Source of the DNA: Melioribacter roseus
GTDB lineage: Bacteria > Bacteroidota > Ignavibacteria > Ignavibacteriales > Melioribacteraceae
Assembly (NCBI GenBank): GCA_020722005.1
Contig: DYLP01000026.1
Coordinates: 5,815-37,913, forward strand
DNA length: 32,099 nucleotides
Reading direction: 5' to 3'
Shown: piece after piece, positions 3,982-32,045 of the stretch
Numbering within the stretch: position 1 is the stretch's first letter
How the letters are laid out: the number at the start of each line of letters is the position of its first letter
Notes under the pieces: model-generated
What the model was told of the DNA's origin: nothing
Database searches by the model: none
What the model saw: the letters and a program-made list of their open reading frames with translations, nothing else
Made by a program: the position numbers and the translations under genes

Positions 3982-5427
3982 ATGAAAAAGTCCGAAAGTA
4001 AAGAAGGCATCAACTCGAGCAGACGTGAATTCATTAAAAAAAGCAGTATTGCATTTGCAGGTTTATTTACAATTCCTTATTTGAAACCGTCTGGTATTTT
4101 TGCCTATGATTTAAATAAACGGGCGAATTTATCTACCGTTGCAATAACAAATACATTGAATACTCCGGCTGACAATTATGTATATGATGATATCAATGGA
4201 GGAGTTAAACAAAAAATGCAATACTTGTTTGAACAGCTGGGTGGAATTTCAGATTTATTCAGTAGTGATAAAAAAGTTGTAATCAAGATTAATCTTACAG
4301 GTGGCTCTGGAAGTGCATCCAACGATAAACTACAGGGCTCTACAATCGAAGAAGCTATGTGGAGTCACTCGACTGTCGTAAGAGCTGCAGCAGAATTAAT
4401 TATTGATTCGGGAGTATCGCCCAGTAATATTTATATAGTTGAAAGTCTCGGTAGTTACGATTCTTTTGATAATCCTGTATTTGAAGGATATCGGTCTATA
4501 CAAAAAGACTTAAACTGTCATTTGGTTGATATCAGCAAGGGAAATTTTATCGACGTTTCCACGGGCGACGACTATTTTAATTTCCCGAGTTTCAGAATGA
4601 ACGAAATACTTATTAATAACGATGTTTATGTATCGATTGGCAAGTTAAAACAGCATGCTGAAGCTGGAATAACTCTGGCAATTAAGAACCAGATCGGTTC
4701 AGTGCCGCAGGCAGATTATGCAACCCAACAGATTCAGTATCGGCGACAGGCAATCCATAGCCCTACGAATGGATCATCTGCAAAATTTTTACCTCGCTCG
4801 GTGTGCGATTTATATGCAGCGCGTCCCGTCGATTTTTCTATTGGTGACGGAATTAAAAATGCTTTAGGCGGAGAAGGCGTCTGGAATCCGAATTTTGCAC
4901 CATATGCCAGTCATGTATTGTTTGCAGGAAAAGATCCTGTGGCTACGGACACTATAGCAGCTCATTTAATGGGGCTCGAGCCAGAAGCTGAAAAACTTAA
5001 GTTGCCTGCAAAAAACAGCTATGGCGACACTGAATGCGATAATTATCTTGATCTTCTCTATAAAAAGGGAATTGGTACCAATCGCCTGAGCGAAATTAAT
5101 TTAGTTGGCGACGGGAAAGATTTAATAACAAGCGTGAACAAAAATAAAGACTTGGAAAGACCTTCCGATTTTAAATTATGCGCAAATTATCCAAATCCAT
5201 TTAATCCTTCTACCATGATTGTATTTTATTTGCCACGAAATGACTATATAAAATTAAAAGTATTCGATATCACCGGCAAAGAAATTGAAACTCTAATTGA
5301 AGGCGAGGTGCCTGCAGGCGAACATCGTCTGCAATGGAACGCTACAGGACTGGCAAGCGGTCTTTATATCAGTCGATTGGAAACTAATGGTTACAGTCAA
5401 TCCATTAAAATGATCTACCAAAAATAA
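3982..5427 (+). CDS. DUF362 protein with Tat signal and T9SS sorting domain
   Basis: A 481-residue protein. The N-terminus carries a twin-arginine motif, SRREFIK (R14, R15), followed by a hydrophobic stretch (SIAFAGLFTIPYL). This predicts folding in the cytoplasm before export. The body (about 70-385) resembles DUF362, with VVIKINLTGG, an SHSTVVRAAAELI segment, GKLKQHAEAGITLAIKNQIG and FAGKDPVATDTIAAHLMGL. DUF362 proteins are often linked to Fe-S domains, but no ferredoxin-like Cys cluster is visible here. The C-terminus is a full T9SS sorting domain (YPNPFNPST to SIKMIYQK). The start is well set by the strong AGGAGGGGGG at 3971-3980. The gene sits 26 bp after GH2 and 19 bp before the SMP-30-like gene. 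Biochemical function unknown. Confidence 0.8.
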   Translation: MKKSESKEGINSSRREFIKKSSIAFAGLFTIPYLKPSGIFAYDLNKRANLSTVAITNTLNTPADNYVYDDINGGVKQKMQYLFEQLGGISDLFSSDKKVVIKINLTGGSGSASNDKLQGSTIEEAMWSHSTVVRAAAELIIDSGVSPSNIYIVESLGSYDSFDNPVFEGYRSIQKDLNCHLVDISKGNFIDVSTGDDYFNFPSFRMNEILINNDVYVSIGKLKQHAEAGITLAIKNQIGSVPQADYATQQIQYRRQAIHSPTNGSSAKFLPRSVCDLYAARPVDFSIGDGIKNALGGEGVWNPNFAPYASHVLFAGKDPVATDTIAAHLMGLEPEAEKLKLPAKNSYGDTECDNYLDLLYKKGIGTNRLSEINLVGDGKDLITSVNKNKDLERPSDFKLCANYPNPFNPSTMIVFYLPRNDYIKLKVFDITGKEIETLIEGEVPAGEHRLQWNATGLASGLYISRLETNGYSQSIKMIYQK

Positions 5428-17943: not shown

Positions 17944-19464
17944 ATGCAAAGGTACATCCTTATTTTTATCATTAGTCTTTTTAGTATTTGTAAGGCTCAG
18001 CATTTACCGATTTCTTATCGAGTTGAAAATAGCTGTCTTGACTGTCCAGAGCCGCCGTTACCTTCAATTAATGAATTGCCCGTAATAAAATCTTTACCCA
18101 ATCCATTTATGTGGTCCGATACAACGCGAGGGCGAATTAAAACAATTCAGGATTGGAAATATAGGCGTTGTGAAATAGGTAGAGAAATTCAGTATTATGA
18201 AACTGGAATAAAACCACCGCCGCCGGATACATTGTATGCAAAATATGAAGATAGTTTATTAACAGTTACAATAATTGAAAACGGCGATACACTAATTTTG
18301 ACTGCACGAATTACAATACCAGAAGGAGAAGGTCCTTTCCCAGCAGTTATTGGTGTGGGTTTCTGGGGCGGCACTGGAAGTCTGCCACCGGATATTTTTG
18401 TTAGCAGAAATATTGCTACCATACAATATAATTTTAGTGAACTGGCACCCTGGGGTTTTGATGTCAAACGCGGCACAGGTGGATTTTATAAAGTCTACCC
18501 TGATCCAAAAATTGGGTTTTTCACTGCATGGGCATGGGGAGTTAGTCGTATAATTGACGGTCTGGAAAAGATTCCAAATTTGAAAATCGACCTTTCGCGA
18601 CTGGCAATTACAGGATGCTCATTTGCAGGCAAAATAGCTCTTTTTTCTGCGGCATTCGACGAACGAATTGCATTAACGATATCTCAGGAATCAGGCGGAG
18701 GGGGTTATACTGCCTGGCGCGTTACAGAATCTCTTTCTGGTTCCAGAGAGACTTTAAGAAATGCACAGGGAGCTCCGTGGTATTTGCAGAGTTTGAATCA
18801 ATTTAATAATTATGTAACAAAACTTCCTTACGACCACCACGAGCTAATGGCTATGATTGCTCCGCGTGCTCTTTTCGTGACAGGTAATCCTGATTTTGAA
18901 TGGCTTGCCGATGAATCGGGACACGTTGCTTCACTGGCTGCACATGAAGTCTGGAAAGCACTTGGGGTACCGGACAGGTTCGGATTTTCTATAGTAAGTG
19001 GACATCAACATTGTGTTGTCCCGTCTTCCCAGATTCCCGAAATAGAAGCATTTGTCGATAAATTTCTTTTAGGTGATTCTACTGCTAATACTAATATTAA
19101 AACTACACCGTATAATACAGATCTTTCAAAATGGATTACGTGGACGACTCCGGAATTAAAGGACGTCCCTGCTGATGTTGGCAGTGCAGAAAAATTAATC
19201 AATGATTTTGAACTTTATCAGAATTTTCCCAATCCATTTAATCCAGAGACAAGAATTATATATAAAGTGCCTGCAAGAAGCTTCATTAGCTTAAAAATTT
19301 ATAACTCATTAGGAGAGGAAATTAAAACCCTTTTTGAAGGGATCCAGAATCAGGGAAAATATGAACTCGTTTTCGATGCTAACGAACTTACATCGGGGGT
19401 TTATCTTTGTGAATTTAAGTCCGATGATTTTCAGAAAGCAACCAAACTTTTGTTAATCAAATAA
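17944..19464 (+). CDS. CE15-type glucuronoyl methylesterase with T9SS sorting domain
   Basis: A 506-residue secreted alpha/beta hydrolase. The signal peptide ends KA|Q. The catalytic domain (about 40-375) shows PAVIGVGFWGG, the nucleophile elbow TGCSFAGK (S226), SQESGGGG with the acidic residue E249 and SGHQHC with the catalytic His (H356 or H354). This is the CE15 layout; these enzymes cleave the ester between (4-O-methyl-)glucuronic acid of xylan and lignin alcohols. The usual CE15 elbow is GCSRxGK; here Phe227 replaces the Arg that helps form the oxyanion hole, so it may belong to a divergent clade. A T9SS sorting domain (FPNPFNPET to TKLLLIK) ends the protein. It is the last gene of the first block. 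Confidence 0.85.
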   Translation: MQRYILIFIISLFSICKAQHLPISYRVENSCLDCPEPPLPSINELPVIKSLPNPFMWSDTTRGRIKTIQDWKYRRCEIGREIQYYETGIKPPPPDTLYAKYEDSLLTVTIIENGDTLILTARITIPEGEGPFPAVIGVGFWGGTGSLPPDIFVSRNIATIQYNFSELAPWGFDVKRGTGGFYKVYPDPKIGFFTAWAWGVSRIIDGLEKIPNLKIDLSRLAITGCSFAGKIALFSAAFDERIALTISQESGGGGYTAWRVTESLSGSRETLRNAQGAPWYLQSLNQFNNYVTKLPYDHHELMAMIAPRALFVTGNPDFEWLADESGHVASLAAHEVWKALGVPDRFGFSIVSGHQHCVVPSSQIPEIEAFVDKFLLGDSTANTNIKTTPYNTDLSKWITWTTPELKDVPADVGSAEKLINDFELYQNFPNPFNPETRIIYKVPARSFISLKIYNSLGEEIKTLFEGIQNQGKYELVFDANELTSGVYLCEFKSDDFQKATKLLLIK

Positions 19465-19604: not shown

Positions 19605-21506
19605 ATGATTCGGAATCACTTTTCTTCGTACTTGTTGTACCTGGTAGTCTTTTCGATTCCTCTATTTATTTCTGATTCTCTGGCTCAATCAATATTGGTC
19701 AGCGGCAAAATTACAGCCTCTCGTTTTCCCGTAAAACAAGCTAAAATTACTTTTGTCAATAATTCCGATACTACAGTTCAGTATTCAACTCTAACGGATG
19801 ATAATGGTAATTACAAGATTGATATTGTAACTTCAATCCAGGATGATTTTACTATTCCTTCAAGTTTTACACTGGGGCAGAGTTATCCAAATCCATTTTC
19901 ATCAAGTGCTGCTATCCCTTATGGATTGCATAATGAATCAGATGTAACGGTAACTATATATGACGTGCTCGGTAGAGTGGTCCGAAAATTTAGCGTCGGA
20001 CGTCAAACTGTCGGTCCGCACAGTATTGTTTGGGATGGCAGAAATGAAATCGGTCAGAAAGTAGCAAGCGGTATCTATTTCTATAAATTGGAAGCAGGGA
20101 GTGAATCGCAGGTTAAAAAGATGATCTTTAATCAAAACGGAAGTGGGCTTATACCGCTGCCGAACAGTTTTTCTTTTGAAAAACTTAGCAAGAATTCGGC
20201 TACACAAATAAATAATGAGTACTCGGTTCGAATTGGCAATAATGACAAAACAATGCCGTATGTTATTGAAAAAGAATACGGAATAGTAAATCTAAAAAAT
20301 GATACGACGATTAATTTTGCCGTTTCATATCTGCCCACGGCATCGGTCACTCCGGAGAATAAACGTCAGATAATAAGAGGATTCGGAGCTGCCAATATTG
20401 TTCAGTGGCGTCAAGATATGACCGACTCGGAAATCGAAACAGCATTTGGTACAGATGAAGGGCAACTCGGTTTTTCGATATTAAGAATTCGTATCCAACC
20501 TGAAAGTAATTTTTGGAGCACTAATGTTCCTACAGCAAAGAAAGCACATGAAATGGGAGCTACAATAGTTGCATCGCCATGGAGTCCACCTGCATCGATG
20601 AAAATTAATAATAACCTTGTCGGCGGCGAATTAAGAGAGGACGCATACGACGATTATGCCGAACATTTAAACTCGTTTGTTGAATATATGGCATCGCAAG
20701 AAGTTCCGATTTATGCTGTCTCAATCCAGAATGAGCCAGATATTAAGGTTAGCTACGAGTCGTGCGGCTGGAATGCCGACCAGATGATTAAATTTCTTAG
20801 AGAAAACAAATCTGCCGTCGGAACGAAAATAATGGCGCCGGAATCGTATCAGTTCAAACGAGAACTATCCGACCCAATTTTAAATGACTCGCTTGCGTGC
20901 GCCAATCTTGATATTGTTGCGGGACATATATACGGCGGTGGTCTTGCTTCATATCCTCTTGCAGAAGAAAAAGGGAAAGAAATCTGGATGACAGAACATT
21001 TAACCGGTAGCGATAATCAGGTTTCACCAAATAGCTGGACTGAAGCTTTTCCTGTGGCTGAAGAAATTAACGACGTTATGAAAAGCGGTATGAGCGCATA
21101 TATCTGGTGGTATTTGGTTCGATTCTACGGACCAATAAGCGACGGTACGGCTAACAGCGGTCAAAAAGGGGATGTGACAAAAAAAGGTTATATAATGTCG
21201 CAGTTTGCAAGATTTGTTCGTCCCGGTTTTTACAGAGTAGAAAGCGAAACGGCGCCCTTTTTAAGCAGTTTTGACGTTACAGCTTATCAGGATCCGCAAA
21301 CGAAAAAACTCGTTATTGTAGCTGTTAATTCGTCCGATTCTCAAACTGAATATGTCATAAAGGTTAACGACAATGTTTCATCATTTATAACATATACTAC
21401 ATCTGCCAGTAAGAATTGTCAAATGGGAAATAACATAAGCGTATCAGACGGTAAATTGTTCATTTCGATGGAGCCGAAGAGTATAACAACATTTATATCA
21501 AACTAA
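19605..21506 (+). CDS. GH30 (subfamily 8-like) glucuronoxylanase with internal sorting-domain-like module
   Basis: A 633-residue enzyme. The signal peptide is cleaved at SLA|QS. Residues about 28-80 begin a carboxypeptidase-regulatory/CnaB-like strand domain (VSGKITASRFPVKQAKITF). Residues about 85-176 are a T9SS-sorting-domain/FlgD-like module (YPNPFSSSAAIPY, VYDVLGR-like YDVLGRVV, ASGIYFYKLEAG, KKMIF), then the beta-rich stretch resumes (to about 245). The GH30 barrel and side domain fill the rest, with acid/base E377 in IQNEPD and nucleophile E464 in WMTEHLTG. WWYLVRFYGPI keeps the Arg and Tyr that bind glucuronate in subfamily 8, so it probably cuts xylan next to (4-O-methyl-)glucuronosyl side chains. 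There is no C-terminal sorting domain, which is odd for a secreted endo-enzyme here. Confidence 0.88.
   Translation: MIRNHFSSYLLYLVVFSIPLFISDSLAQSILVSGKITASRFPVKQAKITFVNNSDTTVQYSTLTDDNGNYKIDIVTSIQDDFTIPSSFTLGQSYPNPFSSSAAIPYGLHNESDVTVTIYDVLGRVVRKFSVGRQTVGPHSIVWDGRNEIGQKVASGIYFYKLEAGSESQVKKMIFNQNGSGLIPLPNSFSFEKLSKNSATQINNEYSVRIGNNDKTMPYVIEKEYGIVNLKNDTTINFAVSYLPTASVTPENKRQIIRGFGAANIVQWRQDMTDSEIETAFGTDEGQLGFSILRIRIQPESNFWSTNVPTAKKAHEMGATIVASPWSPPASMKINNNLVGGELREDAYDDYAEHLNSFVEYMASQEVPIYAVSIQNEPDIKVSYESCGWNADQMIKFLRENKSAVGTKIMAPESYQFKRELSDPILNDSLACANLDIVAGHIYGGGLASYPLAEEKGKEIWMTEHLTGSDNQVSPNSWTEAFPVAEEINDVMKSGMSAYIWWYLVRFYGPISDGTANSGQKGDVTKKGYIMSQFARFVRPGFYRVESETAPFLSSFDVTAYQDPQTKKLVIVAVNSSDSQTEYVIKVNDNVSSFITYTTSASKNCQMGNNISVSDGKLFISMEPKSITTFISN
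19857..20132 (+). other. Internal T9SS-sorting-domain/FlgD-like module in GH30
   Basis: These bases encode the sorting-domain-like module of the GH30 protein (about residues 85-176). It has all landmarks of the C-terminal domains in neighbouring genes, but NPFSSS replaces NPFNPx and more than 450 residues follow it. Confidence 0.8.
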
Positions 21507-21543: not shown

Positions 21544-23913
21544 ATGAAGAAGAAAATTTATAGTATTATGACGTGGTTGGTCGTTGCAGTTTTTGTAATG
21601 AGCCCGTCAATTTCAAAAGGTCAGCTGGTTACAAATGGAAGTTTTGAAAATACACCGGTCGGACCAATTACCGGAAATATTGAAGGCTGGGTGTTGAGTG
21701 TTGGAACTTCTGTTACAACACCTCCGGATTTTGCAATAGTTGATAATCCCGTCAAGCACGGCAATCATGCATTGAAAATTGTGATCAATAGTCTAGGCGA
21801 AAATGATTGGGATATTCAGCTTGTTGCAGATAGTATCCCTGTTAAACCTGGCGATACATATATATATTCAATTTGGGCAAAAGCTGAAACAAGTGGAGCC
21901 GAAGCAAATTTTACTGTTGGTAATTACTCGTATAGCGAATACGGCGCCATCAGACCTGCCAGATTAACGACTGAATGGCAGGGATTCACTATGGAATTTA
22001 CTATAACTGACAATCAAACTATAATCCGTGCTCCGATCCATTTTAACCGAGCCGGGAACACAGGTAATACAATTTACGTTGACAATTTAACTATTATTAA
22101 TAAGAATGATTTACCTTCGCCATTAAAGCCGATAGTACTTGAAGCAGAAAATGCCCAGTTAGGCAGCGATCTGGATATCCTGCAAGATGGCGATATTACA
22201 TATGTTACGCCTAAAACTAATTTTATAAATGGCACCAATCCTGGTAGTGCTTCGAAAGTAATTACATTCGAAGTTACTTTTGTTGATACTGGGTCATATG
22301 ATCTATTTGCAAAAGTGCGTGTTGGCGCCAATCAATATAATGACGATAGCTTTTTCTATGGAAACGGTTTCGGGATAAAAGATACACTTAACGACGACGA
22401 TTGGGTGCTTGGTAATGGGTTACAGGTAGCTGGCTTTAATGAAGCCGATAATATTGTAAAGGATCCCGGTGGATTAGGAGATGGAGTCTGGAAATGGGTA
22501 AATTTATCGCATAATAATTTTGGCGAAGACCCTGTGGTCTTTAGAGTTGAAGGCGATACTTTAACAAGAATATTCCAGATTTCCGCTCGTGAAGACGGTC
22601 TCGATATTGACAAAATTGCATTCGGAAAATCGAATCTTTATTTCACGGTTGACAATCTCGAAAACAAAACACCTGGCTCAGACAAATTGCCTGGTGAAGT
22701 GTGGGCTGGTCCGCCAATTGCTTCCAAGCAACAAAAATTTTTGGGCTCGGCGTATAGCGTTGCGCAAGCTCCAAATTTTGCAGCCTACTGGAATTCTGTA
22801 ATTCCTGAAAATGCAGGTAAATGGGGCAGTGTGGAATCCTCACGTGATAATATGAATTGGGGGGAACTTGACGCTGCATATAATCTGGCAAAAGAAAACG
22901 GCTTTGTATTTATTTATCACGTATTGGTATGGGGTCAGCAACAACCAGGATGGATTAATAATCTTTCACCGGAAGAACAACTCGAAGAAATTCGCGAATG
23001 GTTCCAGGCAGTTGCTGACAGGTATCCCGATATCGACTATTTACAGGTTGCAAACGAATCTTTGCCAGACCACAATCCTCCTGATGGCAAGAATGGTAGA
23101 GCAAATTATAAAGAAGCTCTCGGTGGTAATGGTTCAACTGGATGGGACTGGGTAATTAACGCTTTTAAGATGGCTCGTGAAATATTCCCAACCAAAACAA
23201 AACTGATGATTAACGACTATAATATTATTAACAGTTCTACAAACACAAGTGCATATCTCAAATTAATCAGATTACTGCAGAAAGAAAATTTGATCGACGT
23301 TATCGGTGTACAGGGACACGCATTCTCCTTGAATACCGCAGTCTCTGTTATAAAAAAGAATCTCGACTCACTCGCATCTACAGGACTGAAGATTCAAGTA
23401 ACGGAACTTGACATTGACGGATTAACAGACGAAAAACAATTGCAAGACTATCAAAAAATCTTTCCTGTTTTATGGGAACATCCTGCAGTCGAAGGTATCA
23501 CTCTGTGGGGTTGGCGACCCGGTCTATGGCGAAATGACCAGAAGGCTTATCTTGTTGACGCCAATGGTTACGAAAGACCTGCATTGACCTGGCTACGAAA
23601 TTACCTTGATACTGTAGTAGTATCAGTTGAAAAGACGGATGATTTGCCGAAGGATTTCTATTTGTCTAATAACTATCCCAATCCGTTCAATCCGACTACG
23701 AAAATTAATTATTCGATTTCGAAGTCAGTCAATGTTTCGCTAAAAGTTTATGATGTACTCGGACGCGAAGTTAAAACACTTGTGCAGGGTGTGCAAAATC
23801 CTGGTTCGTATACAGTTACTCTTGATGCCTCTGAACTTTCGAGCGGAATCTATTTCTATCGTCTGGAAGCTGGAAATTATTCCGAAACAAAACAAATGTT
23901 GTTGATAAAATAA
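21544..23913 (+). CDS. GH10 endo-beta-1,4-xylanase with two CBM-like domains and T9SS sorting domain
   Basis: A 789-residue secreted xylanase. The signal peptide is cleaved at SKG|Q. Residues about 28-190 form a CBM4/9/22-type jelly roll (LVTNGSFENTPVG, GNTIYVDNLTI). Residues about 195-365 form a second beta-sandwich of CBM6/35 type (VLEAENAQLG, YNDDSFFYG, GLDIDKIAFG). The GH10 barrel (about 390-695) has acid/base E505 in QVANESLPD and nucleophile E621 in IQVTELDIDG; HVLVWGQQQPGW carries Gly where many GH10 enzymes have His. The T9SS sorting domain (YPNPFNPTT to KQMLLIK) ends the protein. It cleaves the xylan backbone at the cell surface. Start set by AAGGAGG (21531-21537), 37 bp after GH30; the two probably share a transcript closed by the hairpin downstream. 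Confidence 0.93.
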   Translation: MKKKIYSIMTWLVVAVFVMSPSISKGQLVTNGSFENTPVGPITGNIEGWVLSVGTSVTTPPDFAIVDNPVKHGNHALKIVINSLGENDWDIQLVADSIPVKPGDTYIYSIWAKAETSGAEANFTVGNYSYSEYGAIRPARLTTEWQGFTMEFTITDNQTIIRAPIHFNRAGNTGNTIYVDNLTIINKNDLPSPLKPIVLEAENAQLGSDLDILQDGDITYVTPKTNFINGTNPGSASKVITFEVTFVDTGSYDLFAKVRVGANQYNDDSFFYGNGFGIKDTLNDDDWVLGNGLQVAGFNEADNIVKDPGGLGDGVWKWVNLSHNNFGEDPVVFRVEGDTLTRIFQISAREDGLDIDKIAFGKSNLYFTVDNLENKTPGSDKLPGEVWAGPPIASKQQKFLGSAYSVAQAPNFAAYWNSVIPENAGKWGSVESSRDNMNWGELDAAYNLAKENGFVFIYHVLVWGQQQPGWINNLSPEEQLEEIREWFQAVADRYPDIDYLQVANESLPDHNPPDGKNGRANYKEALGGNGSTGWDWVINAFKMAREIFPTKTKLMINDYNIINSSTNTSAYLKLIRLLQKENLIDVIGVQGHAFSLNTAVSVIKKNLDSLASTGLKIQVTELDIDGLTDEKQLQDYQKIFPVLWEHPAVEGITLWGWRPGLWRNDQKAYLVDANGYERPALTWLRNYLDTVVVSVEKTDDLPKDFYLSNNYPNPFNPTTKINYSISKSVNVSLKVYDVLGREVKTLVQGVQNPGSYTVTLDASELSSGIYFYRLEAGNYSETKQMLLIK

Positions 23914-23923
23914 ATTATTAATT

Positions 23924-23962
23924 GGGTTGGCTCGCTATGATGGCGGGCTAACCCTTGTTCTT
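23924..23962 (+). terminator. Rho-independent terminator after GH10
   Basis: GGGTTGGCTCGC (23924-23935) pairs with GCGGGCTAACCC (23943-23954) through ten Watson-Crick and two G-U pairs around a 7-nt loop, followed by TTGTTCTT. It separates the GH30-GH10 unit from the GH115 block. Confidence 0.8.
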
Positions 23963-23991: not shown

Positions 23992-24003
23992 ATGGGTTTA
24001 TAA
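23992..24003 (+). CDS. Three-codon leader frame overlapping the GH115 start
   Basis: ATG GGT TTA TAA (Met-Gly-Leu-stop) has a well-placed AGGA (23982-23985, six bases upstream). Its stop overlaps the GH115 start as TAATG. The GH115 start itself lies 17 bases from that AGGA, so GH115 may be translated by coupling. This could be chance. Confidence 0.3.
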   Translation: MGL

Positions 24004-26858
24004 TGAAAAAATTAATCGCTTTGATTATCGGCATACTTACGCTTAATAATGGGATTGTATACAGCGGGAATTATATCACAACACAAAAAGAAGGAAGCGC
24101 TTTTACTATTGCAGAAAATGGAAAAGCCGCTCCCATATTCTACAGCAACGACGATTACCCTGGCGTAATTAGAGTTATTAAACAACTTAGTATTGATATT
24201 GAATCCGTTACTAATATTAAACCAGAAATATATGATAGTAACTATCCAGCCTCCGATTTTGCAATAATTGTCGGAACGTATAACAAAAGTAGCTTAATTA
24301 AGAGATTGGTAGAGCAAAATAAAATTGATTTTAAAAATCTTGAAGGCAAATGGGAGCAATTTTTTATAATCACTACGGAAGACGTATTGCCGGGAGTAAA
24401 GAAAGCATTGCTGATAATTGGGAGCGACAAGAGAGGGACGATTTTCGGGGTATACGATTTATCGGAAAAAATGGGGGTATCGCCCTGGTACTGGTGGGCT
24501 GATGTACCTGCAAAGAAAAAGCAAGCCGTTTACGTCAAACCTGTAAATTTTACAATGGGAGAACCTGCAGTACAATACAGAGGAATCTTCATAAACGACG
24601 AAGCTCCTGCATTAACAGGTTGGGCTTACGAAAAATTCGGAGGCTTCAATCATCAGTTTTATCAACACGTTTTTGAATTGATTCTCCGTTTAAAAGGAAA
24701 TTTTTTGTGGCCAGCTATGTGGGGAAAATCATTTTTCGATGACGACTCGTTAAACCCCAGATTGGCAGATGAATACGGTATCGTAATCAGTACTTCACAT
24801 CATGAACCAATGATGAGAGCTCACGTTGAATGGGCTCGTTATGGTAAAGGACCGTGGAACTATACTAAGAACGACAGTTTGTTGAGAGAATTCTGGCGCG
24901 AAGGCATTAAAAGAATGAACGGATACGAAAGCATCGTTACGATCGGAATGCGCGGGGACGGCGACGAACCGATGAGCCAGGAAGCCAATATTTCTTTACT
25001 CGAAAGAATTGTCGAAGACCAGAGAAAAATTATTGAAGAAGTAACGGGCAAAAAACCCGAAGAAGTGCCTCAGGTCTGGGCTCTCTATAAAGAAGTTCAG
25101 GAATATTACGATAAAGGAATGCGAGTACCCGACGATGTAACTTTATTACTTTGCGATGATAACTGGGGAAATATTAGGAAGTTGCCTGACCTGAATGAAA
25201 AACCGCGTAAAGGAGGATACGGAATTTATTATCATTACGATTACGTCGGAGGTCCTAGGAATTATAAATGGATCAATACTAATCAAATTGAACGCGTTTG
25301 GGAACAGATGCATCTGGCATATGAATACGGCGCCAGGAAAATATGGATTGTAAACGTCGGTGATATCAAACCGATGGAATTTCCAATCGACTTTTTTCTC
25401 GATTATGCTTGGAATCCGGAATTTATACCTCTGGAAAAACTTGGCGAATATTCTTATGAATGGGCAAAAGAACAATTCGGTGAAAAATATGCGCGAGATA
25501 TCGCCTATATTCTGGATAAATATACAAAATACAATTCGCGTAGAAAACCGGAATTACTTTCTCCTGAAACGTATAGCCTCATTAATTTCAGGGAATTTGA
25601 AACCGTAGTAAATGACTATAAACTTCTTTATGATAAGGCTAAATTTATTTATGAAAAATTACCATCTGAATATCACGACGCTTATTATCAACTTGTGCTT
25701 CATCCGGTTGAAGCTTCTTCAAATCTTTATGAACTCTATTTCTTTACAGCGAAGAATCGTTTGTATGCAAAACAAAAGAGAGTGTTGACAAATCAAATGG
25801 CTCAAAAAGTTAAAGAACTTTTCGAAAGAGATTCGCTAATAACAGAATATTATCATACTAAAATTGCTGGCGGGAAATGGAACCATATGATGTCGCAAAC
25901 TCACATCGGATATACTTACTGGCAGCAACCGGATAAAAATAATATCCCTGAATGTGAAATAATCGAGAACCCGGATAAATCTGATATGGGAGTTGCAGTC
26001 GAGGGTTCTGCGGATTTTTACCCTAGTACGATAACGCTCGCTCTGCCTGCTTTCGAATCGTTTTATGCTCAGAAGTATTTTATCGAAATTTTTAATAGAG
26101 GAGAAAAACCGTTTGATTATAAAATAGTTTCTGACGATATCTTTGTTATCGAAAATAAAACCGGAACAGTCGAAACAGAAAAGAAAATATGGGTTTCAAT
26201 AGATTGGCAAAAAGTAAAAATAGGAGACCACAATTACGTCATCAAAATAATTGGCTCTAACGATGAAGTTTGTACCATAAATGCAGTTGTAAAAAATCCC
26301 GCGCAATTTGATTGCGATAATTATTTTGTGGAAACAAACAATTACATTTCAATTGAAGCGCAGGATTATTCGCGCAAATCTGAATCTGATAATATTAAAT
26401 GGATTACAATACCGAATCTAGGACGAACGTCGTCTGCAGTTACATTCTTTCCCGTCACAGCTAACGTAGAACTTTCTAAAGAGACTCCTCATTTGGAGTA
26501 TGACATCTATTTATTCAAAAAAGGGAATATTAATGTTAATGTCTATTTATCGCCAACACTCGATTTTAACGATCATCACGCTGAAGACAGCATTGGTTTG
26601 CTCTTTGCCGTATCAATCGACGACGAAATTCCAAAGATTGTTAATATGCATAAAGGAATTAATCTCAGACTATGGGAAAAATGGGTTGCTGAAAACATTA
26701 ACATTCAGCAAACTACGCACGTAGTTAATGAACCTGGCAAACATGTTTTGAAAATATGGGCAATCGATCCTGGTGTGGTGATTCAAAAAATTGTCGTCGA
26801 AACTGGTAAAATCGGCTATTCATATTTGGGTCCACCGGAAAGTGAATGTAGGGAATAG
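24003..26858 (+). CDS. GH115 xylan alpha-1,2-glucuronidase
   Basis: A 951-residue enzyme. I place the start at ATG 24003, which gives a normal signal peptide (MKKLIALIIGILTLNNGIVYS); a TTG at 23955 would add 16 residues reaching back into the terminator. GH115 landmarks are WWADVPAKKK, FGGFNHQFYQHVFELILRLK, NFLWPAMW, STSHHEPMMRAHVEW, MRGDGDEPM, LLLCDDNWGNIRKLP, YYHYDYVGGPRNY and VNVGDIKPMEFPIDFFLDYA. The C-terminal beta domain ends in GYSYLGPPES. This family removes (4-O-methyl-)glucuronic acid from internal and terminal xylose of xylan, so it would release 4-O-methyl-glucuronate. No sorting domain, hence probably periplasmic. The last codons and the stop lie in a heptanucleotide repeat. It heads the block that ends with the corrinoid genes. 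Confidence 0.93.
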   Translation: MKKLIALIIGILTLNNGIVYSGNYITTQKEGSAFTIAENGKAAPIFYSNDDYPGVIRVIKQLSIDIESVTNIKPEIYDSNYPASDFAIIVGTYNKSSLIKRLVEQNKIDFKNLEGKWEQFFIITTEDVLPGVKKALLIIGSDKRGTIFGVYDLSEKMGVSPWYWWADVPAKKKQAVYVKPVNFTMGEPAVQYRGIFINDEAPALTGWAYEKFGGFNHQFYQHVFELILRLKGNFLWPAMWGKSFFDDDSLNPRLADEYGIVISTSHHEPMMRAHVEWARYGKGPWNYTKNDSLLREFWREGIKRMNGYESIVTIGMRGDGDEPMSQEANISLLERIVEDQRKIIEEVTGKKPEEVPQVWALYKEVQEYYDKGMRVPDDVTLLLCDDNWGNIRKLPDLNEKPRKGGYGIYYHYDYVGGPRNYKWINTNQIERVWEQMHLAYEYGARKIWIVNVGDIKPMEFPIDFFLDYAWNPEFIPLEKLGEYSYEWAKEQFGEKYARDIAYILDKYTKYNSRRKPELLSPETYSLINFREFETVVNDYKLLYDKAKFIYEKLPSEYHDAYYQLVLHPVEASSNLYELYFFTAKNRLYAKQKRVLTNQMAQKVKELFERDSLITEYYHTKIAGGKWNHMMSQTHIGYTYWQQPDKNNIPECEIIENPDKSDMGVAVEGSADFYPSTITLALPAFESFYAQKYFIEIFNRGEKPFDYKIVSDDIFVIENKTGTVETEKKIWVSIDWQKVKIGDHNYVIKIIGSNDEVCTINAVVKNPAQFDCDNYFVETNNYISIEAQDYSRKSESDNIKWITIPNLGRTSSAVTFFPVTANVELSKETPHLEYDIYLFKKGNINVNVYLSPTLDFNDHHAEDSIGLLFAVSIDDEIPKIVNMHKGINLRLWEKWVAENINIQQTTHVVNEPGKHVLKIWAIDPGVVIQKIVVETGKIGYSYLGPPESECRE

Positions 26859-26882
26859 GGAATAGGGAATAGGGAATAGGGA
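26849..26882 (+). repeat. TAGGGAA heptanucleotide tandem repeat (4 full copies plus a partial one)
   Basis: TAGGGAA is repeated exactly four times from 26849 and followed by TAGGGA. The array includes the last three sense codons and the TAG stop of the GH115 gene. Five GGG runs separated by four-base AATA loops match the standard G-quadruplex pattern on the coding strand and mRNA. Confidence 0.9.
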
Positions 26883-26887
26883 TTGAA

Positions 26888-26911
26888 GGTTAGGTGGTTA
26901 AGAAGTTAGGA
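26888..26911 (+). repeat. Degenerate 8-bp repeat GGTTARGW x3
   Basis: GGTTAGGT, GGTTAAGA and AGTTAGGA stand in tandem just after the heptanucleotide array, within the 138-bp gap between GH115 and the next GH43 gene. The rest of that gap is AT-rich, and I see no convincing promoter in it. Confidence 0.55.
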
Positions 26912-26996
26912 AGAGAGATTGGCTGGATATTTGTATTCAAATTATTATTTTCTTTGCTAAAAAGACAAAGTATACAATACAATTATAAAAAGGCTG

Positions 26997-28679
26997 ATGA
27001 AGATGAAAAAAATTTTAGCTCTTATATTTTTGATGGTATGCGTGTCTATTGCTCAGGAAAAATTTACAAATCCAATATTGATGGGCTTTTATCCGGACCC
27101 GAGTATATGCAAAGTGGATGATAACTATTACCTGGTAAATTCCTCTTTTTCTTATTTCCCCGGCATTCCTGTTTTCCAGAGCAAAGATTTGGTAAATTGG
27201 AAATTAATCGGGCACGTTCTCGACAGGCAAGAGCAGATGAATACAAATGGACTCGGTGTATCGAGGGGCATTTTTGCTCCCTCTATAAGATATCACAAAG
27301 GTATTTATTATGTCACCTGTACACTCGTCGATGCGGGCGGCAATTTCATTGTTAAATCAAAAGAGCCTTCAGGACCGTGGTCCAATCCGGTTTGGATACC
27401 CGAAATTAATGGTATCGACCCCTCTCCTTTCTTTGACGATGACGGCAAAGCTTATATCGTTTATAATAGTGTAGCTCCTGATAATAAACCATTATACGAT
27501 GGTCACAGAACAATTAGAATTATTGAGTTCGAACTTGAGAATCTTAAAGTAAAGGGTAGAGAACATATCCTTATTAACGGCGGAACCGATTTATCGAAAA
27601 AACCGGTTTGGATTGAGGGCCCTCATATTTTCAAGAAAGATGGCTATTATTATTTGATTGCCGCTGAAGGTGGTACGGAAGATAATCACTCAGAAGTAGT
27701 GTTCAGAAGTAAAAATCTATTCGGTCCTTACGAGTCATACAAAAACAATCCTATACTAACACAAAGACACCTTGACCCGAACAGAAATAATCCGATAACT
27801 TCAACGGGACACGCGGATTTTGTTGTAACAGATGAGGGCAACTGGTGGGCTGTGTTTCTGGGATGCAGACCTTATGAAGACGGTTATTATAATACAGGAA
27901 GGGAAACCTTCCTGTCTCCTGTTAAATGGATAGACGGTTGGCCCATCATTAATCCCGATTATGAAGAAGTACAATATTTCTATCCTTACCCGACAAAACC
28001 GGCAACAGATTTTGCTACCAGACAATATAGCGGTAATTTTACGTTTGTTGACGATTTTGATGATGAAAAGTTAGCAGGCGACTGGATTTTTCTGAGAACT
28101 CCCAAAGAAATATGGTACAGTCTAAAAGAAAAAAAAGGATTTTTGAGAATATACCTGAGACCTGAAACTTGCTCGGGTAAGGGCAATCCTTCTTTTATCG
28201 GTCACAGGCAGCAGCATATAAAGTCTTCTGCAGAGACAAAAATAAATTTTCGTCCGGAATCCGAATTTGAAAAAGCCGGTATTGTAATTTTTCAGAATGA
28301 GAAGCATTTTTATTATCTGTGTAAATCGAAAAATAAACTTAACAGTACAATACAATTATTTAAGTCGACCAGCGGAAATGATATCGAATTGATTGAAGAA
28401 AAAATTATTCCCGAAGAAATACAAAGTGACGATTTATTCTTAAAAATAGTATCCGAAGGTAAAGAATATTCGTTTCACTATGCATGGAAGGAAGGCGAAT
28501 GGCATACGTTCGAAAATAAATTGGACGCCTCTTTTTTGAGTACAAAAGTTGCCGGTGGATTTGTAGGAGCAGTTTTCGGAGTCTATGCAACTTCGTCAGG
28601 GAAAGAATCAAATAATAAAGCTTTCTACGATTATTTCTTATACCGAGGAAACGATGACATTTATAATTCGAATAAATAA
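26997..28679 (+). CDS. GH43 beta-xylosidase/arabinofuranosidase with C2 domain
   Basis: A 560-residue protein. The signal peptide (KKILALIFLMVCVSIA, cleavage before Q) is followed by a GH43 propeller (about 23-325) with base D34 in GFYPDPSI, the second Asp in GIDPSPFFDDDG and acid E207 in WIEGPHIFK. A concanavalin-like beta-xylosidase C-terminal domain (about 345-555, FVDDFDDEKLAGDW to DYFLYRG) ends the protein. The pattern NSSFSYFPGIPVFQSKDLVNW is typical of exo-acting beta-xylosidases with some arabinofuranosidase activity. No sorting domain, so periplasmic. ATG 27003 is an equally possible start given the AAAAAGG ending at 26993. The corrinoid-protein gene follows after 42 bp with no terminator visible. 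Confidence 0.9.
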   Translation: MKMKKILALIFLMVCVSIAQEKFTNPILMGFYPDPSICKVDDNYYLVNSSFSYFPGIPVFQSKDLVNWKLIGHVLDRQEQMNTNGLGVSRGIFAPSIRYHKGIYYVTCTLVDAGGNFIVKSKEPSGPWSNPVWIPEINGIDPSPFFDDDGKAYIVYNSVAPDNKPLYDGHRTIRIIEFELENLKVKGREHILINGGTDLSKKPVWIEGPHIFKKDGYYYLIAAEGGTEDNHSEVVFRSKNLFGPYESYKNNPILTQRHLDPNRNNPITSTGHADFVVTDEGNWWAVFLGCRPYEDGYYNTGRETFLSPVKWIDGWPIINPDYEEVQYFYPYPTKPATDFATRQYSGNFTFVDDFDDEKLAGDWIFLRTPKEIWYSLKEKKGFLRIYLRPETCSGKGNPSFIGHRQQHIKSSAETKINFRPESEFEKAGIVIFQNEKHFYYLCKSKNKLNSTIQLFKSTSGNDIELIEEKIIPEEIQSDDLFLKIVSEGKEYSFHYAWKEGEWHTFENKLDASFLSTKVAGGFVGAVFGVYATSSGKESNNKAFYDYFLYRGNDDIYNSNK

Positions 28680-28721
28680 TTAAGCGTTTTTTTTAATAAA
28701 AAAAATAATGACGGTATCAAA

Positions 28722-29390
28722 ATGGATGACTTAATCAAGAAAATCAGTTATTGTATTGAAAGAGGTAAAGTCAACAAAACTGCTCCTTATCCTCCCGATA
28801 TGAAGGAACAAGAAGGCGCCGACGAACTAACTTTGAAAGCATTGGACTTAGGAATAAAACCGTTTGAAATTTTAGATGCATGCAATGTCGGTATGAAAAT
28901 CATCGGTGAAAAATTTAGCAGGAACGAAGTATTTGTGCCTGAACTTCTTATGGCTGCCAAAGCAATGCAGGCAGTGATGAATCATCTCAAACCGTATTTT
29001 CAAACTGGCGAGGTGAAGAAGAAAGGTAAATTTGTAATCGGTACGGTTGCAGGTGATTTACACGATATCGGAAAAAATTTGGTAAGTATGGTCGTGGAAG
29101 GCAACGGCTGGGAAGTAATAGATTTGGGTGTTGATGTTAAAACGAATAAATTTCTGGAAGTGATAAATAATAACAGAGATTGCACTGTTGGACTGAGTGC
29201 ATTGCTCACAACAACGATGGCAAACATGTCCACTACTGTTGCGGAAATCAAAAGTAAATTCCCGGACATAAAAGTAATTGTGGGCGGTGCGCCTGTAACT
29301 CAAGAAGCAGCTCAAAAAATGGGCGCCGATGCATACGGCGATAACCCTCAGCAAGCAGTTGAAATACTCGAACATTTTTTGGCAGGTTAG
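28722..29390 (+). CDS. Corrinoid (cobalamin-binding) methyl-carrier protein
   Basis: A 222-residue cytoplasmic protein of the MtaC/MtbC/MttC and MetH-cobalamin-domain type. The N-terminal four-helix cap (about 1-90) is followed by a Rossmann-like B12 domain (about 100-220). The base-off/His-on motif is GDLHDIGKN (D112, H114, G117); SALLTTTM supplies the Ser/Thr of the nucleotide-loop pocket and VIVGGAPVT the later GG motif. It carries a methyl group on cobalt between two methyltransferases. No signal peptide. It is the first of four tightly packed genes; the next starts one base after its stop. The ribosome binding site is weak. The natural methyl donor cannot be told from this protein alone. 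Confidence 0.93.
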   Translation: MDDLIKKISYCIERGKVNKTAPYPPDMKEQEGADELTLKALDLGIKPFEILDACNVGMKIIGEKFSRNEVFVPELLMAAKAMQAVMNHLKPYFQTGEVKKKGKFVIGTVAGDLHDIGKNLVSMVVEGNGWEVIDLGVDVKTNKFLEVINNNRDCTVGLSALLTTTMANMSTTVAEIKSKFPDIKVIVGGAPVTQEAAQKMGADAYGDNPQQAVEILEHFLAG

Positions 29391-29391
29391 T

Positions 29392-30273
29392 ATGCGCAAT
29401 TTTATCGAAGCAGTAAAGAACAGTAAAGTCCTCATATCAGACGGAGCATGGGGAACGTTTCTATACGAAAAAGGACTTACTTCAGGTGAATGTCCTGAAC
29501 TCTGGAATTTAACTCACCGTCAAAAAGTTTTAGAGATTGCAAAAAGCTACATCGAAGCGGGCTCAGATATGATTCTTACAAATAGCTTCGGAGGCAGTCC
29601 CTACAAATTAAAAAGGTATGATCTAGACGGCAGGACATATGAAATCAATAAAGCAGCCGCAGAAATTTCCAGAGAAGCTGCTGGCAAAGAGCATTTCGTT
29701 CTCGGTTCGGTTGGACCAACAGGCGCAATTTTAATGATGGGAGATATTACGGAAGAAGAACTTTTTGAAGGATTCAGACTTCAGATTAAAGCACTGGTAG
29801 ATGGAGGGGTGGATGCCGTTTGTATTGAAACCATGTCCGACATCAACGAAGCACTCATTGCAGTTAAAGCTGCAAAATCAGTGTGCGATATACCTGTCGT
29901 TTGTACTTTTACTTTTGAAAAGACCGTTAATAACGAGTATAGAACTATGATGGGCGTAACTCCCGCTCAAATGGCTGTCGAACTTAAAAATGCCGGCGTT
30001 TCGGTAATTGGTGCAAACTGCGGTAACGGATTCGACCAGATGATTGATATTGTCAAAGAAATTAGAACAGTGGAAAAAGAATTACCTGTACTTGTTCATG
30101 CTAATGCGGGGAAGCCAATATTTAAGGACGGTAAAACCGTCTATCTTGAAACACCCGAATCGATGGCTCAAAAGCTAAACTTTCTTATTGAAAGCGGTGC
30201 CAATATTATAGGAGGATGTTGTGGAACTACCCCTCGTCACATTGAAGCCTTTGTCAAAAAAATTAGAAAATAA
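29392..30273 (+). CDS. Single-domain homocysteine S-methyltransferase
   Basis: A 293-residue protein from ATG 29392, one base after the corrinoid gene; a longer frame from 29329 would overlap that gene and adds no domain. It is a TIM-barrel homocysteine methyltransferase like the first domain of MetH, with SDGAWGTFL, TNSFGGSPYKL, GSVGPTGAIL and CIETMSD. The three zinc ligands are visible in GANCGNG (C210) and GGCCGTTP (C276, C277). The methyltetrahydrofolate-binding domain that follows in MetH is absent, and no such gene lies in the window. With the adjacent corrinoid protein it should move a methyl group from cobalt to homocysteine, giving methionine. Confidence 0.9.
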   Translation: MRNFIEAVKNSKVLISDGAWGTFLYEKGLTSGECPELWNLTHRQKVLEIAKSYIEAGSDMILTNSFGGSPYKLKRYDLDGRTYEINKAAAEISREAAGKEHFVLGSVGPTGAILMMGDITEEELFEGFRLQIKALVDGGVDAVCIETMSDINEALIAVKAAKSVCDIPVVCTFTFEKTVNNEYRTMMGVTPAQMAVELKNAGVSVIGANCGNGFDQMIDIVKEIRTVEKELPVLVHANAGKPIFKDGKTVYLETPESMAQKLNFLIESGANIIGGCCGTTPRHIEAFVKKIRK

Positions 30274-30279
30274 GAGCAA

Positions 30280-31002
30280 ATGTTTACGATTAAAAACAAC
30301 GGGAGTAATAGCCTCGAACTTCATTTAACTCCGGAACAAATTACAGTCCAAAAAGAAGAAATTGATTCTATCATTGGTTATAAAAATACTGAGCACCATT
30401 TCTCCGAAATTATAAATCAAATACTTTCTACATTACCCCAGAAAATTACTCCGCGTGCTGGCTATGTAATTATAAATAGTATTGATTACCCGGATAAGAA
30501 AAGTATTCGACTGCAGGATGTAATTTTTAATACAGAGCCCATTGTTACAAGTCAATTGAAAAATGCCGACTTGATGTTCGTCTTTCTTGCTACCATTGGC
30601 AACAAAATGGAAAAATGGGTAGAGGAATTACGAAGCGAAGGGGAACTGGCTAATAGTTATATTGCAGATTTAATTGCTTCTGCCGCAGCCGAAAAAACTG
30701 CCGATTTCATTCATGATTATATTACAAAAGAAATGAAAAAAAATAATATGGGCGTTTCCAATAGATATAGCCCGGGATATTGTAATTGGCATGTCAGCGA
30801 GCAGCATAAACTTTTTTCATTTTTCCCGAAGAATTTTTGTGGAGTAACGCTTAAAGAATCTGCTTTGATGATGCCCATTAAATCAATAAGCGGAATAATA
30901 GCGGCAGGAAGAAAGGTAAAATGGAACGACTACTTATGTGATACCTGCAAAGCGAAAAACTGCACTTACAGAATTAAAAATAAACAAAATAAGAATCAGT
31001 AG
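30280..31002 (+). CDS. Stand-alone MetH-type reactivation-domain protein
   Basis: A 240-residue protein resembling the vitamin-B12-dependent methionine synthase activation (AdoMet-binding) domain. The family signature is RYSPGYCNW followed by VSEQHKLFSFF (R162, G166, Y167). Upstream are VFLATIGNKMEKW and IADLIASAAAEKTADFI. It is thought to reductively remethylate oxidised Co(II) cobalamin with S-adenosylmethionine. The C-terminus carries a Cys cluster (CDTCKAKNC) not found in the MetH domain itself, possibly a metal or Fe-S site. It lies 6 bp after the homocysteine methyltransferase and 8 bp before the URO-D gene, clearly one operon. Confidence 0.87.
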   Translation: MFTIKNNGSNSLELHLTPEQITVQKEEIDSIIGYKNTEHHFSEIINQILSTLPQKITPRAGYVIINSIDYPDKKSIRLQDVIFNTEPIVTSQLKNADLMFVFLATIGNKMEKWVEELRSEGELANSYIADLIASAAAEKTADFIHDYITKEMKKNNMGVSNRYSPGYCNWHVSEQHKLFSFFPKNFCGVTLKESALMMPIKSISGIIAAGRKVKWNDYLCDTCKAKNCTYRIKNKQNKNQ

Positions 31003-31010
31003 AGGAAATT

Positions 31011-32045
31011 ATGACGGACAATCAATGGGAGATTTTGGAAAAAGTTATCAACGGCGAAAAAGTAGAGCCGTTACCGGTAAGTTTTATTATCGACAGCCCC
31101 TGGCTTCCAAATTGGTACGGCATTAAAATAGTCGAATATTTTGCTAGTGAGGAACTATGGTTCTCAGCAAATTTAAAAGCAATCAATCAATTCCCCGATG
31201 TAATATTTCTGCCGGGCTTCTGGTCTGAATATGGAATGTGTACCGAACCGTCTGCATTTGGCGCACGTTCATCTTTCCCTCCGAATGAATTTCCACACGC
31301 TCATAAATTGATTAATTCAGCAGATGAAATCGAATCTTTGCATCAGCCAAATCCCCAAAACGATGGACTTCTGCCGTTGATGTTAAATCGACTCAAATTA
31401 TTGCAGAGCAGGATTGAAGAAAATGGTCATAAAATAAGATTTGCAGTAGCACGAGGTCCATTAAATATTGCCAGTTATTTGATGGGCACTACAGAATTTC
31501 TTACCACAATGATGATGATGCCTGGTAAAGCACACATTCTGTTGAGAAAAATTACAGACTTTCTAAAAGACTGGCTCGATTTGCAGAGAAGAACTTTTCC
31601 TACAATCGACGGAATATTCCTGCTTGACGATATTGTTGGCTTTATGGGCGAGCCGGAATTCAAAGAATTCGGACTCCCGTATTTCAAGGAATTATTCGAT
31701 GCTGATGTATCGGTAAAATTCTTTCATAACGACGCGCCGTGTAAAGTATCAGCCCCCTATCTGAATGAAATGGGTGTTAATTTATTTAATATGGGGATTG
31801 ATGTATCGCTTTCGGAACTGAAGGAGTTGACGGAAAATAAAATTACACTCGTCGGTAATTTGCCTCCGAGGGATGTTCTTGCTGCCGCCTCTCCCGATGA
31901 AGTTGCAGCGGCAACGAAAAAAATGCTCGACGATCTTAAAGATAAATCTAGGCTGATTGCCTCATGTGGAGGTGGAATGCCTCCGGGAGTAAAAACCGAG
32001 AATATAGAAGCGTTTATCGATACGGTGAAAAATTATAAAATATAA
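31011..32045 (+). CDS. URO-D-superfamily methyltransferase (corrinoid-dependent type)
   Basis: A 344-residue cytoplasmic TIM-barrel protein of the uroporphyrinogen decarboxylase superfamily, whose methyltransferase branch includes MtaA, MtbA and CmuA. Visible parts are VARGPLNIASYLMG, FLLDDIVGFMGEPEF, FFHNDAPC (H239, C244), LVGNLPPRDVL and SCGGGMPPGVKTENI (C319). H239, C319 and possibly C244 could bind zinc. The Arg-rich porphyrin-binding N-terminus of true HemE is not seen, and the setting with a corrinoid protein argues for methyl transfer. It most likely moves a methyl group from a methoxy or other methyl donor to the corrinoid protein; the donor is unknown. Ribosome binding site AGAGGA. 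The last 54 bases of the window hold nothing recognisable. Confidence 0.85.
   Translation: MTDNQWEILEKVINGEKVEPLPVSFIIDSPWLPNWYGIKIVEYFASEELWFSANLKAINQFPDVIFLPGFWSEYGMCTEPSAFGARSSFPPNEFPHAHKLINSADEIESLHQPNPQNDGLLPLMLNRLKLLQSRIEENGHKIRFAVARGPLNIASYLMGTTEFLTTMMMMPGKAHILLRKITDFLKDWLDLQRRTFPTIDGIFLLDDIVGFMGEPEFKEFGLPYFKELFDADVSVKFFHNDAPCKVSAPYLNEMGVNLFNMGIDVSLSELKELTENKITLVGNLPPRDVLAAASPDEVAAATKKMLDDLKDKSRLIASCGGGMPPGVKTENIEAFIDTVKNYKI

Follow-up and report, generated by a model that had tools for sequence, protein, structure and literature searches.

What would a bacterium gain from keeping a corrinoid methyl-transfer system at the end of a xylan-degradation locus? The question arises from a 32,099-nucleotide stretch of a Melioribacter roseus genome (hereafter, the window; bases 5815-37913 of contig C79, DYLP01000026.1, in the 2.66-Mb, 79-contig assembly GCA_020722005.1). 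The window ends in the gene order GH115 alpha-glucuronidase, GH43 enzyme, corrinoid protein, homocysteine S-methyltransferase (HMT), MetH-type activation protein and a protein of the URO-D (uroporphyrinogen decarboxylase) superfamily (Table 1). Our reading, to which we give a probability of about 0.68, is that the URO-D protein acts as methyltransferase I (MT-I), the enzyme for the methyl donor, in a corrinoid O-demethylase, and that its substrate is 4-O-methyl-glucuronate released from glucuronoxylan or the next intermediate of the glucuronate route. This sugar acid is a major side group of hardwood xylan, and we know of no enzyme identified as demethylating it.

The layout of the locus is as the original prediction had described it. 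Open reading frames (ORFs) confirm that the four methyl-transfer genes share the direction of GH115, are separated by 1, 6 and 8 bp and begin 42 bp after GH43, and all six genes from GH115 to URO-D score above the Pfam cut-off for their families. A consensus scan found no terminator-like site on the plus strand of the GH115-GH43 gap, again in agreement with the prediction, and placed a terminator-like stem-loop between GH10 and GH115. Its stem is by far the longest among the terminator-like sites of the region (10 found versus 6.0 expected in shuffles), and it would separate the GH115-to-URO-D set from the genes upstream; together with the absence of such a site in the GH115-GH43 gap, this suggests that GH115 through URO-D may be one unit. 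The contig stops 54 bases past the URO-D gene, so the operon is truncated by the assembly. Signal-peptide-like N-termini, read by eye, are present on GH115 and GH43 and on none of the four methyl-transfer proteins, and GH115 is expected to free (4-O-methyl-)glucuronate outside the cytoplasm.

The four genes resemble a methionine synthase divided into modules, in which the methyl-folate module appears to have been swapped for the URO-D protein. On the MetH profile (TIGR02082), HMT aligns to positions 2-310, the corrinoid protein to 669-837 and the activation protein to 1043-1178. The homocysteine, cobalamin and S-adenosylmethionine (SAM)-activation modules are thus all there as separate genes, whereas the pterin-binding module has no counterpart in the window cluster. 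We rejected the idea that these genes are the cell's ordinary methionine synthase, because contig C12 encodes MetH in full (frame of 1227 aa). Genome-wide, the PF00809 pterin-binding domain occurs only in a FolP-like frame and in MetH, so the four-gene set is additional and its methyl donor is not methyl-folate. By Pfam, the window cluster holds no methyltransferase II (MT-II) acting on tetrahydrofolate; nor does it hold a RACE-type activator, the MetH-type activation protein standing in its place (RACE was not searched for elsewhere in the genome). As judged from these modules, the set looks methionine-forming. The nearest solved sequence relative of the corrinoid protein is 1y80, a predicted cobalamin-binding protein, with 4jgi third; both come from O-demethylating anaerobes. 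The activation protein has a single PDB sequence match at E <= 0.01, the methionine synthase structure 1j6r. Elsewhere in the genome, a further stand-alone corrinoid protein gene lies at G000:C74:5585-5791, with a similar one in the same-genus genome G153, and a second homocysteine methyltransferase near a GH67 gene (contig C28) looks unrelated, sitting among heptosyltransferase and ispE genes.

One pointer to the substrate is the distribution of the URO-D protein across the class. In a sample of 294 class genomes, URO-D matches at E <= 1e-20 were found in 41; leaving out four at 26-29% identity, we retained 37, of which 29 belong to family A (60-92% identical to the window's protein, its own genome aside) and eight to family B (36-37%). 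GH115 is present in 33 of the 294 genomes and every one of the 33 carries a URO-D protein of family A or B; conversely, only four of the 37 URO-D genomes have no GH115, and seven of the eight family-B genomes have it. GH67, found in 29 genomes, is accompanied by URO-D in 27. The survey of GH115 and GH67 that the original prediction had proposed therefore shows near-perfect tracking in the class: 34 genomes have both URO-D and an alpha-glucuronidase, 3 have URO-D only, 2 have an alpha-glucuronidase only and 255 have neither. Xylanase alone does not explain this pairing, since the 54 genomes with GH10 (some of these matches are weak) split into 34 with both, 18 with neither, one with an alpha-glucuronidase only and one with URO-D only. 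In genera g5, g6, g7 and g17, URO-D and GH115 are jointly present in some sampled members and jointly absent in others; in genus g46, two of eight URO-D genomes have no GH115, one of these having GH67. A separate sample of 365 genomes from the phylum contains GH115 in 53, ten of which fall in the class, and all ten carry URO-D.

We then read the neighborhoods of the 37 URO-D genes over up to 20 kb (32 kb for the window). Several of these loci end at contig ends, and since ORFs were called greedily for the orthologue sets, an apparent absence of a gene may stem from a truncated contig, a frameshift or faulty ORF calling; the family name of each cluster rests on one representative. Among the 29 family-A loci, the corrinoid protein is found in 19, HMT and the activation protein in 17 each, GH115 and GH43 in 15 each, mannonate oxidoreductase in 12, and UxuA and a major facilitator superfamily protein of the galactonate-transporter family in 11 each. 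The exact order corrinoid protein, HMT, activation protein, URO-D (CORR-HMT-REACT-UROD) recurs in 13 of the 29, and this recurrence, together with the 33/33 pairing of GH115 and URO-D, argues that the cluster is not a product of chance. In five of the 37 loci, the gene directly preceding URO-D, in the same orientation, is mannonate oxidoreductase. Each of the 37 URO-D genomes encodes stand-alone copies of the corrinoid protein and HMT (in frames of at most 382 aa), located elsewhere if not adjacent to URO-D; this count has no URO-D-negative control. Glucuronate isomerase was found in eight of nine genomes tested, and the window's genome has a copy on contig C11. The presence of glucuronate-route genes in many neighborhoods favors 4-O-methyl-glucuronate over lignin methoxyls as the methyl donor.

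The chemistry of that route offers a rationale for this linkage. Carbon C4 of glucuronate ends up as C3 of mannonate, and UxuA eliminates the oxygen on C3 as water. A methyl on this oxygen must therefore leave first, unless UxuA can expel methanol; it would block the pathway at this very point, which would account for its removal being linked with glucuronate genes. The same carbon mapping adds 4-O-methyl-fructuronate and 3-O-methyl-mannonate as candidate substrates.

Family B has a different set of helpers around the same URO-D partner, and its co-occurrence with GH115 is unchanged. Its eight loci contain the corrinoid protein in seven, HMT and RACE in six each, methyl-tetrahydrofolate (methyl-THF):corrinoid methyltransferase and an MTHFR-like protein in four each, and GH115 in two. 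A separate family-B protein aligns to the MetH profile at 345-587, where the pterin-binding module lies. By their families, these helper genes appear to be the parts of an O-demethylase that feeds folate. The original prediction had named homocysteine as the methyl acceptor. For the window this is supported, given the adjacent HMT and the confinement of PF00809 to the FolP-like frame and MetH, but four of the eight family-B loci also have a methyl-folate branch, so the methyl may have sinks other than methionine.

The prediction had also left room for lignin methoxyls as the donor, and one alternative is indeed that an aromatic methoxyl (of ferulate, vanillate or syringate) is freed along with xylan and that the locus simply contains an ordinary aromatic O-demethylase. 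The superfamily gives some grounds for this, as OdmB and VdmB, the characterized O-demethylases of the superfamily described in PMC10418091, act on phenolic compounds, and a profile of families A and B reaches CdmB of Acetobacterium (9rui; E 1.6e-7, the last of 22 matches). A PF00756 esterase, found in eight of 29 family-A and one of eight family-B loci, also has a representative that weakly matches ferulic acid esterases (6rzn, E 3.4e-6), although the PDB entries that it matches best are BES and esterases of the siderophore/IroE type. The recurrent neighbors that could be identified are instead uronate and glycoside-hydrolase genes, and no aromatic-pathway gene appears among the cluster representatives scanned, a scan that mostly covered neighbors occurring more than once. 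Moreover, of the 19 GH10 genomes that have neither GH115 nor GH67, 18 have no URO-D even though feruloylated xylan would be accessible to them (with some GH10 matches weak, as above). On this evidence the lignin or ferulate donor gained no support and we consider it unlikely, whereas the part of the prediction that named 4-O-methyl-glucuronate is supported by the co-occurrence, the glucuronate genes and the zinc site of the URO-D protein.

That zinc site sets the protein apart from the better known members of its superfamily. We rejected an identity as HemE, since the protein scores 71 bits against an equivalog cut-off of 302.95; HemE itself is presumably encoded at another site of the genome, where the URO-D match reaches 481 bits. 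Its score against the mtaA_cmuA NCBIfam model is likewise low (68.9 bits, cut-off 235.4). The fold predicted for it (mean pLDDT 93.5) appears to be shared with the URO-D methyltransferases MtaA, MtbA, CmuA and Mlp (type 1 MGC): the top structural match is MtaA (4ay7; Z 32.1, root-mean-square deviation 2.7, 328 aligned), with HemE chains tied within 1, and the structural matches listed comprise URO-D, MetE, betaine-homocysteine methyltransferase and ApcE chains. However, MtaA, MtbA, CmuA and Mlp have a His-x-Cys...Cys zinc site, whereas the window's protein has His-x-Asp, and on these grounds we also rejected a thiol-type MtaA/Mlp enzyme as its identity. Read from the alignment alone and counted over the 37 class loci, H239-N240-D241-A242 is invariant in all 37 sequences of families A and B, and the position of the third zinc cysteine is Gly. 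According to PMC10418091, the S-methyltransferases of the superfamily have His-Cys-Cys sites, and in the O-methyltransferases Cys is replaced by a carboxylate or other residues; by this rule, His-x-Asp fits O- rather than S-methyl transfer. R127, R148, E73, E79, D206 and D207 are also invariant across both families and, judging from this conservation, could bind a sugar acid. In a plasmid collection, matches occur in three records, one of them full length at 35% identity in an unannotated Gemmatirosa record.

A URO-D homologue of the other type probably lies further along the operon. In G153, the two genes after URO-D encode a ~440-aa protein with a tail like those of the type IX secretion system (T9SS) and, next to it, another URO-D homologue (UROD2). 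In the window's genome, contig C16 opens with counterparts of both (78 and 75% identity for two pieces of the ~440-aa protein, 81% for UROD2), and its next stretch also matches G153, past a gap of ~6 kb in the latter; the operon thus probably continues on C16. UROD2 is present in 11 of the 29 family-A loci as well as in the G153 continuation, and in the 12 clustered sequences (loci L036-L061) the aligned zinc letters are H-x-C in 12 of 12, with the third Cys in 11 and the twelfth sequence cut short. In several loci it comes after the demethylase genes, and once, in L061, the order is CORR-UROD2-REACT-HMT.

The presence of UROD2 bears on a further possibility, namely that the cluster serves methionine or methyl-thiol salvage unrelated to xylan and owes its place beside the xylan genes to chance or to its being a transfer unit. 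HMT, the corrinoid protein and the activation protein are methionine-synthase parts, a His-Cys-Cys-type UROD2 follows in the syntenic neighborhood, and some Spirochaetota and Prolixibacteraceae metagenome-assembled genomes (MAGs) have CORR, HMT and REACT beside UROD with no xylan genes. All the same, salvage would not account for URO-D in each of the 33 GH115 genomes, a complete MetH already serves the genome, and the zinc site of the URO-D protein is His-x-Asp and not His-x-Cys in 37 of 37; we regard it as very improbable.

How far the association with xylan extends beyond the class was examined in a scan of a species-genome collection, which gave at least 554 coding relatives among at least 589 matched stretches. 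Of these, 80 were kept, with flanks of at most 10 kb, such that "none" in a flank is compatible with an alpha-glucuronidase elsewhere in the genome; loci were labeled with home-made profiles, for which the cut-off was set at 35% of the members' median score. Record titles among the 80 include Melioribacter, KSB1, Calditrichaceae, Neomarinimicrobiota, Chitinispirillaceae, Spirochaetales, Prolixibacteraceae, Phycisphaerae and Verrucomicrobia MAGs. GH115 or GH67 lies in the flanks in Calditrichaceae (L079), KSB1 (L083, L104, L107), Neomarinimicrobiota (L098, L105), Chitinispirillaceae (L099) and a record titled only "bacterium" (L113); further linked records are titled Melioribacter, Ignavibacteria or Bacteroidetes, several of these being class genomes again. 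In another Chitinispirillaceae MAG (L095), glucuronate isomerase directly precedes CORR-HMT-REACT-UROD, and mannonate oxidoreductase-UxuA is nearby. H239, N240 and D241 remain invariant in an alignment (A2) of 47 sequences, 20 of them from the 80 kept relatives. In a FastTree phylogeny of 102 distinct URO-D sequences, in which 31 of the 99 inner branches have support below 80, a single 63-row clade (local support 93) contains 27 of the 29 rows that have an alpha-glucuronidase nearby, and family B contains the other two.

Outside that clade, some loci have a different setting. Relatives with 63% identity in Bacteroidales-type MAGs (L122, L126) stand beside Gfo/Idh/MocA glycoside dehydrogenases and DUF6807, with ThuA in L122 and a sulfatase in L126, and they possibly demethylate other methylated sugars. 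In L124, L127 and L129, also of Bacteroidales type, the neighbors are similar in size to those of L122 and L126. Together with relatives in Planctomycetota and Verrucomicrobiota, these loci suggest an alternative in which the URO-D proteins form a general family of O-methyl-sugar or sugar-acid demethylases, acting on 4-O-methyl-glucuronate or another methylated sugar in xylan loci and on different substrates elsewhere. Against this, the grouping of the 27 GH115- or GH67-linked family-A rows in a single clade suggests a stable substrate there, and substrates outside it are guesswork. We find this alternative unlikely as an account of the window. Among the remaining relatives, seven loci (L112, L116 and L119 in Spirochaetota; L131, L136, L139 and L151 in Prolixibacteraceae and Bacteroidales) have HMT and REACT by UROD, and CORR in all except L116; no xylanase or alpha-glucuronidase is in view and some lie near housekeeping genes. 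In the Bacteroidota loci of this group (among L131, L136, L139 and L151), UROD is divergent from HMT, REACT and CORR. Neighbors in Prolixibacteraceae and Bacteroidales include a tRNA synthetase and a nitronate-monooxygenase gene (L139), GH5 (L136) and a MutS2-type gene (L140); the Spirochaetaceae locus L119, within the 63-row clade, adjoins a leucyl-tRNA synthetase, with no xylan genes in view.

Several observations weigh against 4-O-methyl-glucuronate demethylation as we propose it. The p-values of the co-occurrence (Fisher 1.3e-39 for GH115 in the class, 3.6e-12 among the GH10 genomes) ignore kinship and are hence inflated. Within the class, URO-D occurs with neither GH115 nor GH67 in G028, G196 and G212, and GH67 occurs without URO-D in G161 and G226. 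GH115 is not in view in 20 of the 37 URO-D loci, in part owing to contig ends. Outside the class, none of the other 43 GH115 genomes of the phylum sample has a URO-D match at E <= 1e-30, so the URO-D route can be no more than one of several solutions. Three of four URO-D-negative genomes tested also have glucuronate isomerase, which hence does not discriminate, and a search for UxuA gave nothing in the window's own assembly or G212, though G153 has the gene. In the tree, none of the 30 of 102 sequences (58-66% identical to the window's) that fall outside family B and the 63-row clade has GH115 or GH67 in its flanks, and some of these 30 loci adjoin housekeeping genes, as do some Spirochaetota loci inside the clade. 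Close homologues in non-xylan loci with a proven other donor were what the original prediction had named as evidence against it: the 58-66% relatives with no visible xylan genes match the first half of this but not the second, as no other donor is proven for them. Finally, by our own estimate, the methyl supply from xylan probably exceeds the demand for methionine, and homocysteine alone may not suffice. Such a surplus would explain the folate branch in family B and perhaps UROD2 in family A, which might load surplus methyl onto a thiol.

For the substrate, the direction of transfer, the acceptor, the state of the cofactor and transport, we infer the following scheme from the genes, their order and families, their co-occurrence, the zinc-site letters and the predicted fold. 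GH115, with CE15, GH10, the GH30-like protein and GH43, would liberate the methylated sugar acid outside the cytoplasm, and a transporter would import 4-O-methyl-glucuronate. The URO-D protein would then shift the CH3 of the methyl ether to Co(I) of the corrinoid protein, with no need for oxygen, leaving glucuronate, which would proceed via the isomerase, mannonate oxidoreductase and UxuA into the 2-keto-3-deoxygluconate (KDG) route. HMT would move the methyl from the corrinoid to homocysteine, forming methionine, and the activation protein would restore cobalt oxidized to Co(II), using SAM.

The closest known systems are the corrinoid O-demethylases of acetogens (OdmB, VdmB and CdmB, 9rui), which likewise combine a URO-D donor enzyme with a separate small corrinoid protein in clustered genes. 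As in these systems, the corrinoid protein gene lies in the cluster in the window and in 19 of 29 family-A and seven of eight family-B loci, and family B resembles them further in often having a RACE activator and methyl-THF:corrinoid methyltransferase. The window differs in having a homocysteine methyltransferase and a MetH-type activation protein in place of MT-II and RACE, and in being linked to the release and catabolism of a sugar acid rather than to aromatics; for OdmB and VdmB, the comparison is one of protein family and gene content. Oxidative demethylation by P450, known for 6-O-methyl-galactose, also strips a sugar methyl ether during polysaccharide use. That reaction requires O2 and loses the carbon as formaldehyde, whereas the proposed route would be O2-free and would keep the methyl. 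In a full-text literature search, whose coverage left out most subscription journals, no title or abstract start pointed to corrinoid demethylation of 4-O-methyl-glucuronate or to its enzyme. The component families are known; what would be new is the way they are combined, the probable substrate and the exchange of the folate module of MetH.

The region upstream of GH115 is a xylan locus, with GH10, a GH30-like protein, CE15, two GH43, GH127, GH3 and GH2, several of them with type IX secretion tails. CE15 acts on the ester of the uronic acid that GH115 frees. The original prediction had placed CE15 and GH30 here; the Pfam match bears out CE15, and the GH30 call is weak. The starts of two genes in Table 1 are internal to longer frames: GH115 is taken from an ATG at 24003, its ORF opening earlier at a TTG at 23955, and HMT from an ATG at 29392, the longest ORF beginning at 29329 within the preceding gene. 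A short run of GGGAATA-like repeats (26850-26883) spans the GH115 stop codon into the GH115-GH43 gap. Toward the start of the window, a DUF362 protein (3982-5427, cluster c19), which bears a type IX secretion tail, is found in five of the 29 family-A loci.

Table 1. Features of the window and of the probable operon continuation (positions are those of the window unless a contig is named)
Feature	Position	Strand	Basis or remark
CE15-type glucuronoyl esterase with T9SS sorting tail	17944-19464	+	PF22244
GH30-like xylanase candidate	19605-21506	+	weak: PF02055 23.6 bits, PF02057 26.2 bits
GH10 xylanase with CBM_4_9 and T9SS sorting tail	21544-23913	+	Pfam
Terminator-like stem-loop	23924-23954	+	putative, consensus scan; 14 pairs, loop 3, T-rich tail
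GH115 alpha-glucuronidase	24003-26858	+	PF15979 529.6 bits, PF17829 194.6 bits
GH43 beta-xylosidase-type enzyme	26997-28679	+	PF04616 + PF17851
Corrinoid (B12-binding) carrier protein	28722-29390	+	PF02607 + PF02310
Homocysteine S-methyltransferase (HMT)	29392-30273	+	PF02574
Stand-alone MetH-type activation protein	30280-31002	+	PF02965
URO-D superfamily methyltransferase, proposed 4-O-methyl-glucuronate:corrinoid methyltransferase	31011-32045	+	PF01208 139.6 bits
UROD2 in the window's genome	L154:1454-2470 (contig C16)		URO-D homologue, thiol-type His-x-Cys...Cys site

If the proposal is true, it would explain how bacteria can use 4-O-methyl-glucuronate without oxygen, by way of B12, and it would add carbohydrates to aromatics and small methyl compounds as substrates of corrinoid demethylation. 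Hemicellulose would become a source of one-carbon (C1) units and methionine. More broadly, we lean toward the view that the two URO-D families represent a widespread, O2-independent corrinoid demethylation of the 4-O-methyl group of glucuronate, with the methyl passing to methionine (and, in family B, also to folate), such that hemicellulose would serve directly as a C1 and methionine source, and that the wider URO-D family may treat other methylated sugars likewise.

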